NCBI GenBank assembly: GCA_002709695.1
Contig: PAQF01000026.1
Span: 93,646-157,645 of the forward strand
From: Candidatus Poribacteria bacterium
Lineage (GTDB): Bacteria > Poribacteria > WGA-4E > UBA9662
DNA length: 64,000 nucleotides
Direction of reading: 5' to 3'
Made by a program: the position numbers and the translations under genes. Of the stretch, positions 16,677 through 35,409 are shown one piece after another. How positions within the stretch are numbered: the first letter of the stretch is position 1; each line of letters opens with the position of its first letter. The notes under the pieces were generated by a model, which did not search any database, was not told the DNA's origin, and was given only the letters and a program-made list of their open reading frames with translations.

Positions 16677-17939
16677 ATGGATAAATTGATTATCCAAGGC
16701 GGACGGAGACTTAGCGGTACAGTATCAGTTAGTGGTTCCAAGAACGCAGCGTTGCCAATCATAGTAGCAGCAACAATATTAACCGAACAACCAAGTACCC
16801 TTCGGAACGTTCCAGACCTAATGGATCTGGAAACTTTATGCCACGTTTTGGAAGGATTAGGAGCACGACTACAATTTGAAAAGGGAACGCTATCAATTGA
16901 GCCCATTGACCAAAAAACTTACCAAACTCCCTATGATCTTGTCAGGAAAATGCGTGCCTCCATATATGTTCTAGGCCCTTTAGTTACTAAACTAGGACAA
17001 GCAAAGGTTTCATTTCCTGGCGGATGCGCGATTGGCCCACGACCAGTAGACCTACACCTCAAAGGCCTTGAAGCACTAGGTACAACCATTGAGATCGAAG
17101 GCGGGTATATCCTAGCTAAAGCTAACCAGCTTATTGGTACAGAAATCGGGCTTAAAGGAACCAACGGATCAAGTGTTGGAGCAACAGCAAACATTATGAT
17201 GGCCGCTGTCCTAGCAAAAGGCACAACCACCATTCGAGATGCGGCTTGCGAACCAGAGATTGAGGACCTAGCCAATTTTCTAAATGAAATGGGAGCACAA
17301 GTGTCTGGTGCAGGAACTGCTACCATTACGATTCATGGAACCAAAGAATTAAACGGTGTAGACTATACTATTATTCCCGACCGGATAGAAGCAGGAACTT
17401 TTATGGTTGCAGGTGCAATCACCAAGGGAAATATTTTTATCAGCAATGCCATTCCAAAACACATGGAAGCGTTAACAGAAACTCTCTGTCAAATTGGGGT
17501 ACAGCTGGATTGGCAGGATAAAGGCGTCCATATTACAACACCTAACCTACTTGCCCCAGTTAACGTTAGCACCGGTGTTTACCCCAAATTCCCAACCGAT
17601 ATGCAAGCCCAAATCATGGGACTAATGGCCTTGACGCCAGGAAAGAGTATAATTACCGAATCTATATTTCCTGACCGATTCATGCATGTCAGCGAACTCA
17701 ACCGTATGGGAGCGAAAATCTCCGTTGAGGGGAACAATGCACTTATCTATGGAGTAAACAGCCTCAGTGGAGCCCCAGTCATGGCATCAGACTTACGCGC
17801 AGGTGCGGTACTAATACTAGCTGGTATGGCCGCCATAGGCGAAACAGTTATCTCACGCATCTATCACATTGACCGAGGCTACGAAAAAATTGAGGACAAA
17901 TTGACTAATATCGGAGCAGATATTGTAAGACAAAAATGA
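16677..17939 (+). CDS. murA: UDP-N-acetylglucosamine 1-carboxyvinyltransferase
   Basis: First committed step of peptidoglycan synthesis: transfers enolpyruvate from PEP to UDP-GlcNAc in the cytoplasm. 420 residues, normal length. The substrate lysine-asparagine pair is at GSKNAAL (K22, N23), and the fosfomycin-target cysteine is present as C117 in FPGGCAIGPRPVDLH, so the enzyme should be fosfomycin-sensitive at that residue. The C-terminus shows the EPSP-synthase-fold repeats. It ends at TGA, showing that TGA is a normal stop here. hisD follows after 16 nt. A TATACT at 16600-16605 could be its -10 box, but no good -35 is at the right distance. Confidence 0.97.
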   Translation: MDKLIIQGGRRLSGTVSVSGSKNAALPIIVAATILTEQPSTLRNVPDLMDLETLCHVLEGLGARLQFEKGTLSIEPIDQKTYQTPYDLVRKMRASIYVLGPLVTKLGQAKVSFPGGCAIGPRPVDLHLKGLEALGTTIEIEGGYILAKANQLIGTEIGLKGTNGSSVGATANIMMAAVLAKGTTTIRDAACEPEIEDLANFLNEMGAQVSGAGTATITIHGTKELNGVDYTIIPDRIEAGTFMVAGAITKGNIFISNAIPKHMEALTETLCQIGVQLDWQDKGVHITTPNLLAPVNVSTGVYPKFPTDMQAQIMGLMALTPGKSIITESIFPDRFMHVSELNRMGAKISVEGNNALIYGVNSLSGAPVMASDLRAGAVLILAGMAAIGETVISRIYHIDRGYEKIEDKLTNIGADIVRQK

Positions 17940-27348: not shown

Positions 27349-29001
27349 ATGGATATCAGGTCAATTTCTGCTCATTGTTTCCTGTGGGTTACGATTCTAT
27401 TTTTGACGATTTCAATCAGCAACCCCACTTGGCCGAATTCACCAGTCAGTTATTATCAGGACATCCAACCAATTTTACAACGCAGTTGCCAAGGGTGCCA
27501 CCAACCTAGTCAGGCTCGAGGAGACTTGGTTCTGACTTCCTATACAGATTTTCAACGAGGAGGATCCGAGGGAAAAGCTTTTATAGCAGGAGAACCAAAT
27601 CAAAGCTTAGTTCTTGACTTGATTTCCGGAGACCCACCTTCTATGCCAATGGACAGTGACCCACTGACGCAAGCCGAAATCGAGCTTTTTCGTCGTTGGA
27701 TTATTGAGGGAGCAGTCAACGACACACCAAAAGTGGATTCTGATCCAACCATGAAACCACCTCAATACACAATTCCACCGCTGATTTCTTCCTTAGCTTA
27801 CTCTCCCAATGGCGGCATTCTAGCAGTTTCCGGCTACCGTGAGGTACTCTTACACAAAGCAGATGGTTCCAAACTGTTAACTAGATTACTGGGAAAATCT
27901 GATAGAATCGAATCCATCGTTTATGGAACTAACAATAATATGCTGGTCGCTGTAGGAGGAACACCCGCCAGATTCGGTGAAGTGCAAATCTGGGATACTA
28001 ATGCAAATAAGCTGATTCATTCATTACAATCAACATTTGACACAATCTATGGGGCATCACTATCGCCTGACAATAGCCTTCTCGCCTTTGGCTGCACTGA
28101 CGAAACAGCACGTATAATTTCAATCGAAGATCAAAAAGAACTGGTACGTTTTGATAACCATAGTGACTGGGTTTTGGGTACGGTGTTTACCACTGATGGG
28201 AGTCATTTTGTTACCGGAGCCCGGGACACAGCGTTAAAACTGACTGAGGTTAAGAGCGGATCTTTCGTTGACGATATTAACGCTAGTAATAAAGGATCAG
28301 GACCAATCCACAAAATCGCACGCCACCCAAAGTTGGACCAAGTTTTATCTGGAGGTGAAGACAGGATTCCTCGACTCTACAGGATTTTCCGCCAAAAGCG
28401 ACGTGATGTTGGTAATACCGACTTCAACTTGATCCGTGCCTTCGAGCGTCAATCAGATGTAATAAATGCGATTGCCTTCAATACCGACGGATCACAAATC
28501 GCTGTAGGCGCTGTGGGTGGCGAAGTTCGGATATACAAAGTAGCAGATGGCAACCGTATTGCCACCCTTAATGCTGACTCAACCGCCGTGTTCGCTATAG
28601 CCTTTCATCCAGAAAAAGACCAAGTTGCAACCGGCGGATTTGACGGTCAAATCCGAATATTCAATCCGAACACCGGGAACCTGATCAAAGAATTTATACC
28701 AGTTCCCCTTGATTCTGTGCTAACAGGTGCAAAGAAAACGGGAAAAAAAGTAGAAATTGCTAGAGAAAAAGATAATGGCGTTGAAGCCACAACAGAAATA
28801 AAATTAGCCGTTAGCGGTATGACCTGAGGTGCTTGTGTTGCTAAAGTGCAGGATGCACTTGCTAAGGTATCTGGAGTAATTGATGTGAATGTTTCATTGC
28901 CCAACAATGCCATTTTACAATTACAAGAAACGCAGGTTACAATTGACGAATTACTTGCCGTCGTCAAGGCAACTGGTTTCAGTGCAGAAATTCAGAATTG
29001 A
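27349..29001 (+). CDS. Predicted selenoprotein: secreted cytochrome c/WD40 protein with C-terminal Sec-HMA domain
   Basis: 550 codons from ATG 27349 (an in-frame TTG at 27307 adds 14). In order: signal peptide (about 1-30); planctomycete-type cytochrome with heme motif CQGCH (residues 47-51) and a PSMPM methionine; a WD40 propeller of about six blades (130-460); a Lys/Glu-rich linker; and an HMA metal-binding domain (483-550). A TGA at 28825-28827 interrupts the frame at codon 493, exactly where the first cysteine of the HMA motif GMTCxxC belongs: GMT-TGA-GAC, followed by VAKVQDALAKVSGV and ending in GFSAEIQN before the true TGA stop at 28999-29001. The first beta strand lies before the TGA and the helix after it, so the domain is split by it. 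With the SECIS-like hairpin 23 nt downstream, selenocysteine insertion is the best reading. The alternative is a nonsense mutation removing the HMA domain. First gene of an operon with DUF1549/DUF1553, DUF1501 and PPC proteins. selA/selB/selC are not in the window. Confidence 0.85.
28825..28860 (+). promoter_or_regulatory. Bacterial SECIS-like element (TGA plus hairpin)
   Basis: TGA at 28825-28827, then 16 nt to a perfect 7-bp stem AAGTGCA (28844-28850) / TGCACTT (28854-28860) with loop GGA (28851-28853). The loop starts 23 nt after the TGA, within the 16-37 nt range of the published bacterial SECIS model, and has G in its first two positions as that model requires. The hairpin lies inside the coding frame, as it does in known bacterial selenoprotein genes. 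Confidence 0.78.
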
Positions 29002-29052
29002 TTTTTTTACTATCAATACATAATTGCATGTTTTTGTACGTGAGGTGAATCC

Positions 29053-31539
29053 GTGAAAGTACCAATGTCCCTGTTGGGGATCTTATTAATCTTAACCCTC
29101 AACACATATTCCAATGTTAACGCTAATTCCGCACACCCAGAAGCTAATATCAGGATTCCTAAAATTACCCAGTTAAAATCTATACCTGAAGCACTAGTTC
29201 TTGATGGGAAAAATGATGTTCGAAGTATAACAGTTTCCGGATTGACATCAGATGGGCATTGGATTGATCTATCGAAGGAAGCAAGTTTTACAACCAACGA
29301 TAACAAAGTTAAGATTGATAATAACGGTCATGTTCATCCTGTTGAAGCTGGTTGGACGAGCATCAAAATTGTGTTTCGCCACCATTCCATTGACTTATCG
29401 GTAAACGTAGAGAATATTGATACACAACCCATCAGTTTCGTCCGTGACGTAATGCCCGCCATCAGTAAAGTTGGCTGTAACGCTGGTACCTGTCACGGCG
29501 CAGCTGATGGCAAAAATGGATTTAAACTTTCCTTGCGCGGGTACGATCTCGATCTCGATTACCAAACACTAATCACAGATTTATCAGGCCGCCGTCTTAA
29601 TCGAGCCAGACCATCACAGAGCCTCATGCTACTTAAACCCACACAGGGAGTTCCACACGGAGGAGGTCAAGTCTTAGAAGCCAATTCACGTCATTACAAG
29701 ACTTTCCATCAATGGATTGTTGAAGGAGTAAAATCCGACGTGAATACAACTAAGCGAGTTTCTCGTCTTGAGGTTATCCCAAATACGACAGAAATTCATT
29801 TACCTGGTATGACACAACAATTAATCGTCATTGCCCACTATCCTGATGGCACATCTCGAGAAGTAACAAGTAATGCAATATATACTAGTACACTCTCAGA
29901 TGTAGCGACAGTATCAGATTCGGGATTTGTCACTGCTGTGCGACGTGGGGAAGCAGTCATACTAGTTCGATACGAAAGCCTATACAGCACCAGCGAAATA
30001 CTTGTCATTGGAGACAGATCCGGATTTAAGTGGGAAGAAACAACTCAATATAATTACATTGATGAATTAGTTCATGACAAACTAAAGCGTGTCCGTATCT
30101 TACCATCAGCTCTTTGCACTGATGCTGAATTTATTCGGCGTGTATATCTTGACTTAACCGGTATGCCACCAACACCAAGTCAAATTCAAATATTTTTGGA
30201 AGATCAAACAGATTCAAAACAGAAACGCGACGGATTAATCGATCATCTAATAGGTCAACCCGAATACATTGAGCACTGGACGCATAAATGGGCTGACTTA
30301 CTGCAATGTAATCGCAAGTTTCTCGGGGAAAAGGGCGTTTGGCTTTTCCGAAAATGGATTCATGATTCTGTAGCTAAAAACAAACCTTATGATAAATTCG
30401 TTCGTGACCTGCTACTATCCTCTGGTAGTACCTACCAGAATCCAGCGGCAAACTACCATCTGGTGACAACCGACAAAACTACCTATCAACCGGATGTAGC
30501 AATTGAAAATGCAACGCAGCTTTTCTTAGGTATTAGATTTGCCTGTGCGAAATGTCACGATCATCCTTTTGAAAAATGGACACAAAACCAATACTATGAA
30601 CTCGGATCCTACTTTAGTGAAGTTAGTGTTAAAAGAGGCCAACTTCCTGGAGAGCAGATCGTTTATAACAACTATAATGTTAACGGTGGTGTAAAACACC
30701 CAAAAACTGGGGGAATTGTACCAGCTAATGTGCCATTTGGCTCAGCGGAAAAAATCGGAGTTGATCCGCGCGAATCCGTTACCAACTGGTTAGTTTCAAA
30801 AGACAATCCCTGGTTCGCAAAATCCCTAGTTAATCGCGTCTGGAGTTACTTCTTAGGGCGAGGTATTGTTGAGCCAGTTGACGACATAAGATCAAGCAAT
30901 CCACCCAGCAATGCAAAATTACTTGAAGCCCTAACTAAAGATTTTATAGAAAGTGGTTTTGACCTAAGACATTTAATGCATACAATCACCAAATCTCGAA
31001 CATACCAGCAAAGTATCAAAACAAATCGTTGGAACCAAGAAGACGAGATCAATTTTTCGCACGCAATTCCTAGAAGATTAACCGCAGAACAAATGCTAGA
31101 TGCAGTTTCTATAGCAACAGGAAGCCAACCAAATTTTTCAGGTGTTCCCGAAGGATTTCGTGCGGTTCAGTTGCCTGATAGTAGCCTCGATGATGGAGGG
31201 TTCCTGAAACTTTTCGGTCGCCCCGAACGCGAATCAGCCTGCGAATGTGCAAGAACAACACAGGTCAGTTTATCACATGCTCTCAACCTAATTAATGGAC
31301 CAACTATCGCAAGTGCTATTAATGATCCAAAAGGTCGTATCGCCCAACTAACAGAGCAACAAATTGACAATCGAATTTTAGTTAAAAAAATCTACCTAGC
31401 TTCACTTTGCCGCACGCCAAGTGAAGCTGAATTAATCAACGCAGTTGAACACATTTCGAAAGCAGAGTCCCAAGTCGGAGGTGCTCAGGATCTTCTATGG
31501 GCATTGATCAACAGTCCCTCATTTCTATTCAACCGATAA
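29053..31539 (+). CDS. Secreted DUF1549/DUF1553 planctomycete-type cytochrome protein with Ig-like domains
   Basis: 828 residues; GTG start with GAGGTG upstream. Signal peptide 1-24; a Big2-like Ig domain (about 30-125); a cytochrome-like segment with the heme-type motif CNAGTCH (CX4CH) near residue 142; a second Big2 domain (about 235-315); DUF1549 (about 345-545), which has a canonical heme motif CAKCHDHPF; and DUF1553 (about 590-800) with NPWFAKSLVNRVWSYFLGRG. It lacks the usual membrane anchor. In planctomycetes this family is always next to DUF1501 and is thought to act in the periplasm on polysaccharide or redox substrates; its reaction is not established. It follows the selenoprotein-like gene by 51 nt and likely shares its mRNA. 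Confidence 0.92.
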   Translation: MKVPMSLLGILLILTLNTYSNVNANSAHPEANIRIPKITQLKSIPEALVLDGKNDVRSITVSGLTSDGHWIDLSKEASFTTNDNKVKIDNNGHVHPVEAGWTSIKIVFRHHSIDLSVNVENIDTQPISFVRDVMPAISKVGCNAGTCHGAADGKNGFKLSLRGYDLDLDYQTLITDLSGRRLNRARPSQSLMLLKPTQGVPHGGGQVLEANSRHYKTFHQWIVEGVKSDVNTTKRVSRLEVIPNTTEIHLPGMTQQLIVIAHYPDGTSREVTSNAIYTSTLSDVATVSDSGFVTAVRRGEAVILVRYESLYSTSEILVIGDRSGFKWEETTQYNYIDELVHDKLKRVRILPSALCTDAEFIRRVYLDLTGMPPTPSQIQIFLEDQTDSKQKRDGLIDHLIGQPEYIEHWTHKWADLLQCNRKFLGEKGVWLFRKWIHDSVAKNKPYDKFVRDLLLSSGSTYQNPAANYHLVTTDKTTYQPDVAIENATQLFLGIRFACAKCHDHPFEKWTQNQYYELGSYFSEVSVKRGQLPGEQIVYNNYNVNGGVKHPKTGGIVPANVPFGSAEKIGVDPRESVTNWLVSKDNPWFAKSLVNRVWSYFLGRGIVEPVDDIRSSNPPSNAKLLEALTKDFIESGFDLRHLMHTITKSRTYQQSIKTNRWNQEDEINFSHAIPRRLTAEQMLDAVSIATGSQPNFSGVPEGFRAVQLPDSSLDDGGFLKLFGRPERESACECARTTQVSLSHALNLINGPTIASAINDPKGRIAQLTEQQIDNRILVKKIYLASLCRTPSEAELINAVEHISKAESQVGGAQDLLWALINSPSFLFNR

Positions 31540-31603
31540 AAGGAATTCACTCAAACACTCTAGCAATATATTAAGGAATAAGGAGCCAAAAGGAGAACAA
31601 CAA

Positions 31604-33049
31604 ATGTTATCTATTCCCGGAAAAAAAGCACAATTATGTGATGGGGTTTCTAGGCGAGAGTTTCTTAGGGTTGGAGGTGCCGCAATGCTTGGCATGAGCC
31701 TACCGCAAATTTTAGCACTCCAAGCCAGAGCAAATACAATTGTTACACCTTCTCAAACGCTTAACGGTTTTGGCAAAGCAAAGTCAGTAATCTTGATGTT
31801 TTTACAGGGTGGCCCCAGTCACATAGATATCTGGGATCCTAAACCGGATGCCCCCTCAAATGTACGTGGTGAGTTCAAACCAATTAAGACAAACGTTCCC
31901 GGTATCTGGTTATCTGAAACTATGCCGCGTTTGGCAAAACAAATGGATAAAGCAACATTAATTCGTTCTGTCAGTTATACACCTGTGGGTCTTTTTAATC
32001 ATACTGCTGCAATGTACCAAATGGTGACAGGATCTACACCAGATAAGGTTTCTCCTTCTGGACAATTAGATCCACCTTCACCTAAAGATCACCCCAATGT
32101 TGCTTCTCATGTGGCCAAATTTCTCCCACCCGAAGTCCCAATGCTAGCTGGAGTTCAATTGCCACGTCCACTACAGGAAAGTAACATTATTGGAAAAGGC
32201 GGTACAGGTGGATTTCTGGGGCGAGCTTACGATCCATACTTTTTCTTTCAGGACCCAAATGAGGAAGTGAAGCTAGACGAATTCAGTCTTAGGGAAGAAA
32301 TTCCTGCTGCGCGCCTGAAACGCCGGGCGAACCTCCTTGAAACGATCAACGCTTCAATGCCGGAACTTGAAAAAGTGGCTGATTCTTATGCTCTAAACGA
32401 ATATTATGAAAAAGCCTATGATCTAATACTTTCCGAACGTGCCAGAAACGCGTTCGATCTAACACAAGAAACAGATGCGATGCGTGACCGTTATGGTCGC
32501 CACACCTTTGGTCAAAGTGTATTGCTAGCACGCCGACTGATTGAAGCAGGCACCCGTTTTGTCCAAGTGAATTGGCCATCAGTAGCAAACGGAGATCCCA
32601 ACACAACAGCGTGGGACACTCATGCAGCCAATTTTGGTCCACTAAGAAATTTACACTGTCCAAAACTAGATAGTGCAGTCTCCTCATTATTGGACGATCT
32701 AGACCAACGCGGGTTATTAGAGGAAACGCTTGTTCTTGCTATCGGTGAATTCGGCAGGTCCCCCCGGCTAGGTGTAAGTACTTCAGGTAACAGTAATTCC
32801 CCTGATGGGCGGGATCATTGGCCATATTGTTATACTGGACTAATTGCTGGTGCAGGTATCCAAGGAGGACAAGTCTATGGAAAATCAGACGCAACTGGTT
32901 CGACACCGTTGGAAGACCCTGTACACCCAAGAGATATTCTTGCCACGGTTTACCATACTTTGGGAATTAATCCCAAAACAGAGGTCTTTAACCATCTTGA
33001 TCAACCAAGAGAGTTGGTTAGCGGTGAACCAGTCCTAGGGCTTTTTTAG
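31604..33049 (+). CDS. DUF1501 family protein, Tat-exported
   Basis: 481 residues of the DUF1501 family (alkaline-phosphatase/sulfatase-fold relatives). The N-terminus has a twin-arginine signal, SRREFLRVGGAAMLGM (about residues 19-34), so it is exported folded, probably with metals. Family marks are seen: LMFLQGGPSHIDIWDPKPDAP near residue 68, WDTHAANFG near residue 335 and GEFGRSPRLG near residue 378, plus GRDHWPYCYT. AAGGAG is 8 nt before ATG. It is the standard partner of the preceding DUF1549/DUF1553 protein. The enzymatic reaction is unknown. Confidence 0.93.
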   Translation: MLSIPGKKAQLCDGVSRREFLRVGGAAMLGMSLPQILALQARANTIVTPSQTLNGFGKAKSVILMFLQGGPSHIDIWDPKPDAPSNVRGEFKPIKTNVPGIWLSETMPRLAKQMDKATLIRSVSYTPVGLFNHTAAMYQMVTGSTPDKVSPSGQLDPPSPKDHPNVASHVAKFLPPEVPMLAGVQLPRPLQESNIIGKGGTGGFLGRAYDPYFFFQDPNEEVKLDEFSLREEIPAARLKRRANLLETINASMPELEKVADSYALNEYYEKAYDLILSERARNAFDLTQETDAMRDRYGRHTFGQSVLLARRLIEAGTRFVQVNWPSVANGDPNTTAWDTHAANFGPLRNLHCPKLDSAVSSLLDDLDQRGLLEETLVLAIGEFGRSPRLGVSTSGNSNSPDGRDHWPYCYTGLIAGAGIQGGQVYGKSDATGSTPLEDPVHPRDILATVYHTLGINPKTEVFNHLDQPRELVSGEPVLGLF

Positions 33050-33063
33050 CCATACACCATAGA

Positions 33064-35409
33064 ATGAAAAATTCCATAAGAAAAATCCCGCTCTTGTACT
33101 ATGCCTTACTGTGCTTGGTAAATCCAATTCATTTAATCCAAGCACAGGCAATTCCTCAACTCACCTCCATTGCACCAATTTCCGGCCAACGAGGCACAAC
33201 AGTCGAAGTAATCTTGCAAGGCCAAAACTTAGATCAGGTAACGGAATTTCTGTTTAGTGGTTCAGGAATTTCTGCCGAAATTAAAAATGCTGACTCCCAA
33301 CCACTTGTTCAATTCAATGGACAGGGAATATCAGGAAAGATACCAACAGACGCTCGCCTCACCATCCAGCTTACAATAGCCCCATCTACCCCAGTCGGCT
33401 CCCAAAACCTTCGTCTTGCGGCAAAAAATGGCGTATCCAACCCAAAGCGTTTCATTGTCAGCGACCTACCAGAGATTACCGAAACTGAACCTAACTCAAC
33501 AATTGCTCAAGCTAATATCCTAATACTACCCACCGTCGTTAATGGTACCATCACAAGCTCGGACGATCTTGATTTGTTCCAGTTTCCAGCGAAAAAAAAT
33601 CAGCGAATAATATGCGATGTGCACGCATCCAGAATTGGATCTCCACTAGATTCCTTACTCACCCTCTTCGATCCTGCAGGTAAGGAAATTACCAGTGAAG
33701 ATATCAGCAACGGCTTGGATTCTTTAATCGATTATACTATCCCAGTCTCAGGTAACTATGTATTACAAATCCGCGATTTACGTTATAAAAGTGGCAACAA
33801 TTTCTTTTACCGCATCAGGATTGGAGAGCTACCTTATCTAGACACTATCTTTCCACTTGGAGGTAGGCGTGATACAGAGAGCACCGTTTCTATCACCGGT
33901 CGGAACCTTGGGTCGATTAAATCGATTCAAATGTCAATTTCACCGGATACACCAGTTGGAAATCAGAAATTACGCGTCGTCAACGCGAGCGGAATCTCAA
34001 CAAACCCTCATGATTTCGTCGCTGGAGACCTTAAAGAGACACTTGAAAAAGAACCAAATAACGGAGCGGAACAAGCAAATAACGTTGAAATACCTGCTGT
34101 TATTAATGGACAGATTAACCTCGAAAACGATATTGATTGTTTCACCTTCCAAGCAACTTCAACAACACGACTTATTTTCGAAGTTAACGCACAAAGACTG
34201 GGTTCGCAACTAGACGCCTTCCTATCCCTGTTTGATTCCACAGGAAAACAACTAACTGTGAGCGACGATGTTATCGGAGCAGAAGCCCGAATCGATTTCA
34301 GTTTTCCAAAAGAAGACAAATACACAATTTCAATTCGGGACCTCAACAATCAGAGTGGAACGAACTTCCCTTATCGGCTCAGTATTGCATCGTTACGACC
34401 AGACTTTGGATTGACTATCACACCTGAAAATCCCCGTGTTCCTCGAGGAGGAACAACAAACTTAACAGTTTCTGTTAACCGAATTGACGAGTTCCGTGAA
34501 GCTATCAGCTTATATTTCTCCGGATTTCCGCAAGATTTTGATATAAGTCAGGTTCTCATTAGCCCAGATCAAATACAAACCCAAGTAACCATTACCGCAC
34601 CGAAATCAGCAAATTTGGGTTTGATTGAAGCTATGGCTTGGGGACGCGGATCAATTCACCACAACCTAGTTGAACGGAAGTCTAACCCAATATACTTGAC
34701 TGTGATAGATAATCCAAAATATATTTTAAAAACAGCAGACCTTAGTGTACACGTAGTACAAGGTAAATCAGTGGAACTCCACGTTTTGGCAATTCGAGAG
34801 GAGAAATTTAATAAACTGATTAACCTCTCTGTAGTTGGTCTGCCAGCAAATATGAGCGCCTCAAAAACCTCAATTAAAAAAGGAGAAAACCATACGGTTC
34901 TCACACTAGCTGCAGCTAATTTTGGCCAAGGGCGCATCGGACTCGATCTGGTAACACGGTTACCCTCAGCAGGAACCCACCAAATTGTGGTGGCGGGGAC
35001 AGCTCTAGTCAATAACGAAACTCATGCTCAATCAGCCATTGCAATTCCGCTCATAATAGCGGAAGCCCCTTTTGTGCTGAACGTTGCTCCTGTGAGGCAA
35101 AGTTTTCTATTCCCAAAATCGACAGACACTAATACCCCCATAGAAATCAACGCTGAAATCATTATCGATGTCGTTCGTCAGGGAGGATTCACTGATAAAA
35201 TAGACCTATTCCCTATTGGGTTCCCCGAAGGCCTGACAGGACACCTGCCAAGTATCCCCTCTCAAGAAACGAGATCTAAGATTACATTAACTGCAACTGA
35301 GAAGATAAAACTGGGTTCTTATGATATCAAATTTTCAGGTAGAGCAACTGTCAATAATCAACTCTTCGAACAGGAAACGCCAAGAATCACCATAAAAATT
35401 ATTGATTAA
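33064..35409 (+). CDS. Secreted TIG/PPC-domain protein of the cytochrome operon
   Basis: 781 residues with a signal peptide (about 1-28, ending IQAQA). An IPT/TIG Ig-like domain (about 30-130) precedes a PPC (bacterial pre-peptidase C-terminal) domain opening with ETEPNSTIAQAN (about 140-255). Then a shortened TIG and a second PPC opening with EKEPNNGAEQAN (about 260-440). The C-terminal half is made of three or four beta-sandwich repeats without a clear family. No catalytic motif is seen. It starts 14 nt after DUF1501, and such PPC proteins are regular members of this operon type, probably as cell-surface binding partners. Confidence 0.85.
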   Translation: MKNSIRKIPLLYYALLCLVNPIHLIQAQAIPQLTSIAPISGQRGTTVEVILQGQNLDQVTEFLFSGSGISAEIKNADSQPLVQFNGQGISGKIPTDARLTIQLTIAPSTPVGSQNLRLAAKNGVSNPKRFIVSDLPEITETEPNSTIAQANILILPTVVNGTITSSDDLDLFQFPAKKNQRIICDVHASRIGSPLDSLLTLFDPAGKEITSEDISNGLDSLIDYTIPVSGNYVLQIRDLRYKSGNNFFYRIRIGELPYLDTIFPLGGRRDTESTVSITGRNLGSIKSIQMSISPDTPVGNQKLRVVNASGISTNPHDFVAGDLKETLEKEPNNGAEQANNVEIPAVINGQINLENDIDCFTFQATSTTRLIFEVNAQRLGSQLDAFLSLFDSTGKQLTVSDDVIGAEARIDFSFPKEDKYTISIRDLNNQSGTNFPYRLSIASLRPDFGLTITPENPRVPRGGTTNLTVSVNRIDEFREAISLYFSGFPQDFDISQVLISPDQIQTQVTITAPKSANLGLIEAMAWGRGSIHHNLVERKSNPIYLTVIDNPKYILKTADLSVHVVQGKSVELHVLAIREEKFNKLINLSVVGLPANMSASKTSIKKGENHTVLTLAAANFGQGRIGLDLVTRLPSAGTHQIVVAGTALVNNETHAQSAIAIPLIIAEAPFVLNVAPVRQSFLFPKSTDTNTPIEINAEIIIDVVRQGGFTDKIDLFPIGFPEGLTGHLPSIPSQETRSKITLTATEKIKLGSYDIKFSGRATVNNQLFEQETPRITIKIID

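Follow-up and report, generated by a model that had tools for sequence, protein, structure and literature searches.

Is the TGA at codon 493 of a haem-c/WD40 gene from a Candidatus Poribacteria bacterium a stop codon, or is it read as Sec? The gene lies in a stretch of 64,000 nucleotides (the window). By translation, its frame runs through 492 codons to the TGA, and another 57 sense codons separate this TGA from the closing one (Table 1). Relatives were taken from the same order and class, giving 68 loci, 65 of which carry a heavy-metal-associated (HMA) domain. Among these 65 poribacterial loci, which are phylogenetically non-independent and come mostly from two genera, codon 493 was TGA in 62, TGT in 2 and TGC in 1, and never TAA or TAG. 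The initial annotation had proposed that the frame continues past the TGA into an HMA domain and that the TGA replaces the first Cys of the motif GMTCxxC. The first proposal was confirmed by translation, by a match to the Pfam model PF00403 and by the 62 loci with TGA, and the second is supported by the three relatives with a Cys codon at this position.

For the Pfam search, Cys was written in place of TGA 493. The HMA match covered residues 486-544 of the read-through protein, with 43.5 bits versus a gathering cut-off of 24.8. The first beta strand and GMT precede the TGA, and the second cysteine and the remainder of the domain lie past it; VSGVIDVNVSLPNNAILQLQETQVTIDELLAVVK is an example of a peptide stretch at or past residue 493 in the predicted read-through product. 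Both metal ligands of GMxCxxC, with Sec for the first, were present as GM-T/S-U/C-xx-C in 65/65 HMA-bearing loci. By sequence, the nearest solved relatives of the domain were HMA domains of copper ATPases, CopZ-type chaperones and MerP. An AlphaFold2 model of the read-through protein (mean pLDDT, 75) contained a complete beta-alpha-beta-beta-alpha-beta HMA fold at residues 481-549 (pLDDT, 81-89), and in the predicted structure this fold was complete only when the sequence past TGA 493 was included. The modelled propeller resembled solved seven-bladed structures, and the haem-c region was modelled poorly (pLDDT, <50 at residues 46-104). In the alignment of relatives, CQGCH at residues 47-51 of PSCyt1 was invariant, and from this CxxCH we infer haem attachment. 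The haem-c motif and the signal-like N-terminus together suggest that the protein is probably exported.

Table 1. Features of the putative selenoprotein locus and its downstream neighbours (window positions)
Feature	Position	Strand	Remarks
Putative selenoprotein gene	27349..29001	+	550 aa: signal-like N-terminus, PSCyt1 haem-c, seven-bladed WD40 propeller, linker, C-terminal Sec-HMA
PSCyt1 cytochrome-c domain with CxxCH	27484..27651	+	Residues 46-101 (Pfam match at 47-101); alignment
WD40 propeller	27784..28695	+	Pfam WD40 repeats at residues ~146-449; best structural matches are seven-bladed propellers
HMA domain	28804..28980	+	Residues 486-544; GMT-Sec-GAC
In-frame TGA, predicted Sec codon 493	28825..28827	+	62 TGA, 3 TGT/TGC, 0 TAA/TAG
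SECIS-type hairpin AAGUGCA-GGA-UGCACUU	28844..28860	+	Starts 16 bases past TGA; invariant G opens apical loop
True stop codon	28999..29001	+	TGA here; most relatives TAG or TAA
PSCyt2 (DUF1549)-PSD1 (DUF1553) protein	29053..31539	+	Downstream, operon-like
DUF1501 protein	31604..33049	+	Downstream, operon-like
PPC-domain protein	33064..35409	+	Downstream

The presence of Sec genes in the genome had been named as a check on the initial proposal. We searched the host genome (G000, a 5.2-Mb Ca. Poribacteria draft, 96% complete with 2.9% contamination) by family, and SelA, SelB, SelD and tRNA-Sec were all found. The tRNA-Sec (70.6 bits, anticodon TCA) follows the SelB match at a distance of 18 bases, SelA was matched at 2.8e-173, and SelD (1.8e-107) contains a TGA within its frame near the N-terminus. 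Since SelD is often itself a selenoprotein, this TGA serves as an internal positive control. Indeed, SelD (contig C48:8595-9515), with KTCGUAAKVSP, looks like a selenoprotein itself and has a stable hairpin with a GGUC loop 3' of its TGA. The arrangement with the tRNA-Sec gene directly after SelB (contig C82:26341-28341) is repeated in three genomes that carry Cys at codon 493 (G014, G016 and G021).

The sequence downstream of TGA 493 also contains a SECIS-type hairpin, a cis element that was absent from the initial description. Bacterial SECIS elements are hairpins that follow closely on the UGA and have a small apical loop containing a G (PMC1088965), and the hairpin found here has this position and this loop. 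Among the 252 conserved degenerate columns of 61 TGA forms, a single codon was used only at V500 (GTG), Q501 (CAG) and A503 (GCA), all of which fall inside the hairpin. The five inner pairs form in 79/79 distinct Sec-HMA genes, paralogues included, the first loop base is G in all of them, and in 6/79 the loop-adjacent pair is changed on both sides from A-U to G-C. In 46 distinct hairpins, 96.6% of cells were paired, compared with at most 48% when the partners were slid. Ten double-change cells were counted versus a shuffle mean of 2.5, a covariation that rests on two pairs because 4/7 stem pairs never vary.

The HMA search of the host genome gave four matches, two of them with a TGA: the WD40 gene and a gene on contig C13 (107304-107651, minus strand) whose lipoprotein-like product has 116 residues. 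In this second Sec-HMA gene, with its TGA within the frame, the hairpin GAGUGCG-GUC-CGCACUC is intact. Its metal loop, GMT-U-GIS-C, is one residue longer than U-xx-C, a feature shared with locus L101. Relatives of the small protein were found across the whole order, nearly all with one TGA. Moreover, in several Poribacteria genomes we observed tandem pairs of small lipoprotein-like Sec-HMA genes with a TGA in both (L102, L104, L110 and L115-L119). A partial-looking second copy of the WD40/Sec-HMA gene itself (query residues 336-547) was seen just 3' of the full gene in one genome (L071; G068 contig C53), with its own TGA.

We then considered the three poribacterial relatives with Cys at codon 493. 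Loss of the Sec machinery was rejected as the origin of these forms, since SelB and tRNA-Sec are both present in 3/3 of their genomes, where the small paralogues retain the TGA; no SelA was detected in one of these genomes, G021, a fragmented draft. Exchange to or from Cys therefore occurred in genomes that use Sec. On the tree, two changes are required whichever direction of Sec/Cys exchange is labelled, with weak support for the key forks. Where Cys stands at codon 493, the hairpin loop has a missing or changed GG in 3/3, and 2/3 have a weaker stem; coming from three sequences that are also under coding constraint, this difference in the hairpin is supportive only.

These observations bear on the possibility that UGA 493 is passed by a near-cognate tRNA or by leaky termination, so that the longer isoform would contain no Sec. 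Conservation of the frame would be expected from such read-through alone as well. However, the complete Sec machinery, the synonymous constraint on the downstream SECIS-type hairpin, the alternation of Sec with Cys in particular, at the site of a metal ligand, and the recurrence of this arrangement in the paralogues all argue against it, and we consider it very improbable.

Still less probable is that TGA 493 is a real stop and that the 57 codons past it are a remnant or untranslated, through pseudogenization or a sequencing error. Standard annotation would close the gene at this TGA, and the upstream PSCyt1-WD40 part alone is a full protein in other phyla. Indeed, PSCyt1-WD40 proteins of Verrucomicrobia, Acidobacteria and Armatimonadota share about 41-51% identity over residues ~30-460, several of them with the same neighbours; outside Poribacteria, they finish after the propeller, and the HMA domain was present in 0/22 examined. 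The same-class loci L058, L082 and L085 likewise lack an HMA domain and encode proteins that finish at the propeller. However, close relatives, whose frames might have ended before the HMA domain, either keep the TGA or carry Cys, and the absence of TAA and TAG from codon 493 also speaks against a stop. The TGA-bearing families f1 and f3 are well separated, at about 51-56% identity. Past the TGA, differences by codon position were 0.19/0.16/0.47, and dN was lower than dS in 12/13 pairs compared, the remaining pair being identical; the HMA stretch downstream of the TGA is, by these sequence comparisons, under purifying selection. A sequencing error, which the initial annotation had raised, is excluded because the TGA recurs at codon 493 across dozens of independent assemblies, including several single-contig chromosomes.

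As had been pointed out initially, TGA is an ordinary stop elsewhere: it ends 5 other long ORFs in the window, one of them murA-like with its end at 17939, and TAA, TAG and TGA are all in use. Genome-wide reassignment of TGA was thus rejected. The real stops of the 65 HMA-bearing loci were 41 TAG, 20 TAA and 4 TGA. One match scored with a single TGA, in genome G080, turned out to end at an ordinary stop and to lack an HMA domain. An internal start that would yield the HMA domain as a protein of its own, with TGA 493 as the stop between two genes, is as improbable as an untranslated remnant: these genomes do hold stand-alone HMA proteins, but most stand-alone relatives carry the TGA themselves, the first beta strand and GMT lie upstream of TGA 493 in the same frame, in agreement with the initial annotation, and in the alignment the domain is continuous, with Cys at 493 in three relatives.

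Because of the TGA conservation, the Sec machinery, the hairpin, the Sec/Cys exchange and the predicted fold, we consider it very probable that the gene encodes a selenoprotein in which UGA 493 is read as Sec. In the mechanism that we propose, the hairpin located 16 nt past UGA 493 would recruit SelB with Sec-tRNA-Sec; the UGA would be decoded as Sec and not as a stop, and the ribosome would go on to complete the HMA domain at the C-terminus, whose metal loop would read Sec-x-x-Cys. Besides this Sec-HMA domain, the product would have a seven-bladed propeller and a single c-type haem, and would probably be exported. Its selenolate-thiolate pair would most likely be an extracytoplasmic binding site for a soft metal ion, Cu(I) or Hg(II). 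Gene prediction that ends every frame at TGA would lose the HMA domain, and public annotations are therefore probably truncated.

The genomic neighbourhood was inspected with regard to function. Window positions 27349-35409 hold an operon-like set of PSCyt1-WD40, PSCyt2-PSD1, DUF1501 and PPC genes, some of which also adjoin the WD40 homologue in Verrucomicrobia, Acidobacteria and Armatimonadota; by eye, the next gene reads as a sulfatase instead in many f3 genomes. The putative metal-binding protein may have some relation to the adjoining PSCyt2-PSD1/DUF1501 proteins. Among the neighbouring genes inspected, no Mer or Cop genes flank the WD40/Sec-HMA gene, and by eye no recognisable metal-resistance operon and no Mer or Cop genes lie beside seven small-paralogue loci. 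The metal role thus has no support from genomic context. We nevertheless favour metal binding, with some reserve, as the primary role of the Sec-Cys pair, because codon 493 is a metal ligand position of an intact HMA fold.

The main competing view concerns function only: in a selenoprotein read as proposed, the Sec-Cys pair could be a redox centre (a selenenylsulfide) rather than mainly a metal site. Characterised selenoproteins are mostly redox enzymes, the haem-c motif could exchange electrons, and the lack of flanking metal-resistance genes fits as well. However, in the HMA loop codon 493 has the place of the first metal ligand, and the HMA fold is preserved in full, which makes this a plausible but less probable role than metal binding. 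A more specific scheme seems unlikely: a new kind of selenoenzyme, exported, whose c-type haem and Sec-Cys pair work together, for example in redox chemistry of bound Hg or Cu or in a selenol-haem electron relay, with DUF1549/DUF1553/DUF1501 partners.

The haem-c/WD40/Sec-HMA gene is retained in most genomes of one Poribacteria order, alongside the small lipoprotein-like paralogues. This suggests that these bacteria may employ selenium outside the cytoplasm, in dealing with metals or in redox processes. Poribacteria are a phylum of many sponge symbionts, and such a use of selenium is a testable link to sponge biology. The predicted protein also adds an architecture to the known selenoproteins and offers a new handle on PSCyt/DUF1501 gene clusters.

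Sec in HMA-type proteins is already known, in MerP-like proteins, UxxU_metal_bind, a MerT/CopZ fusion and an E1-E2 ATPase. The initial annotation had mentioned Sec forms of MerP/HMA-type proteins from marine metagenomes, correctly so (PMC2398784; PMC13188914): Sec-containing MerP/mercuric transport proteins, together with a Sec E1-E2 ATPase, were reported from ocean metagenomes in the GOS survey (PMC2398784). It named no example of a fusion to a haem-c domain and a WD40 propeller, and the literature that we searched likewise gave no precedent for a Sec-HMA domain fused to PSCyt1 haem-c and WD40. In these sources, the main texts of mostly open papers, we found no report of selenoproteins from Poribacteria or of WD40/cytochrome selenoproteins. 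Neither the 2026 prokaryotic selenoprotein catalogue (PMC13188914) nor any model of NCBIfam 20.0 includes the architecture.

Four known systems come closest, one of them being the PSCyt1-WD40 proteins of other phyla described above. NF041115 (UxxU_metal_bind) is likewise of HMA type with Sec in the metal-binding loop; it gave 43.5 bits with residues 481-548 and 62.2 bits with the small paralogue, both below its curated cut-off of 95. However, it describes a 74-position stand-alone family with UxxU, whereas in the poribacterial protein the motif is UxxC and the domain is C-terminal to the haem-c and WD40 parts. NF045683 (MerT_CopZ_Se) and the GOS MerP forms also have Sec in MerP/CopZ-type proteins, one of them in a multi-domain fusion, but they are a membrane transporter fusion or stand-alone proteins, without haem-c or propeller, and NF045683 scored 16.8 bits on the poribacterial protein versus a curated cut-off of 375. 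Finally, the Sec-containing E1-E2 cation-transporting ATPase shares the motif UxxC with the poribacterial protein, but it is a P-type ATPase and not a probably exported haem-c/WD40 protein (PMC13188914).
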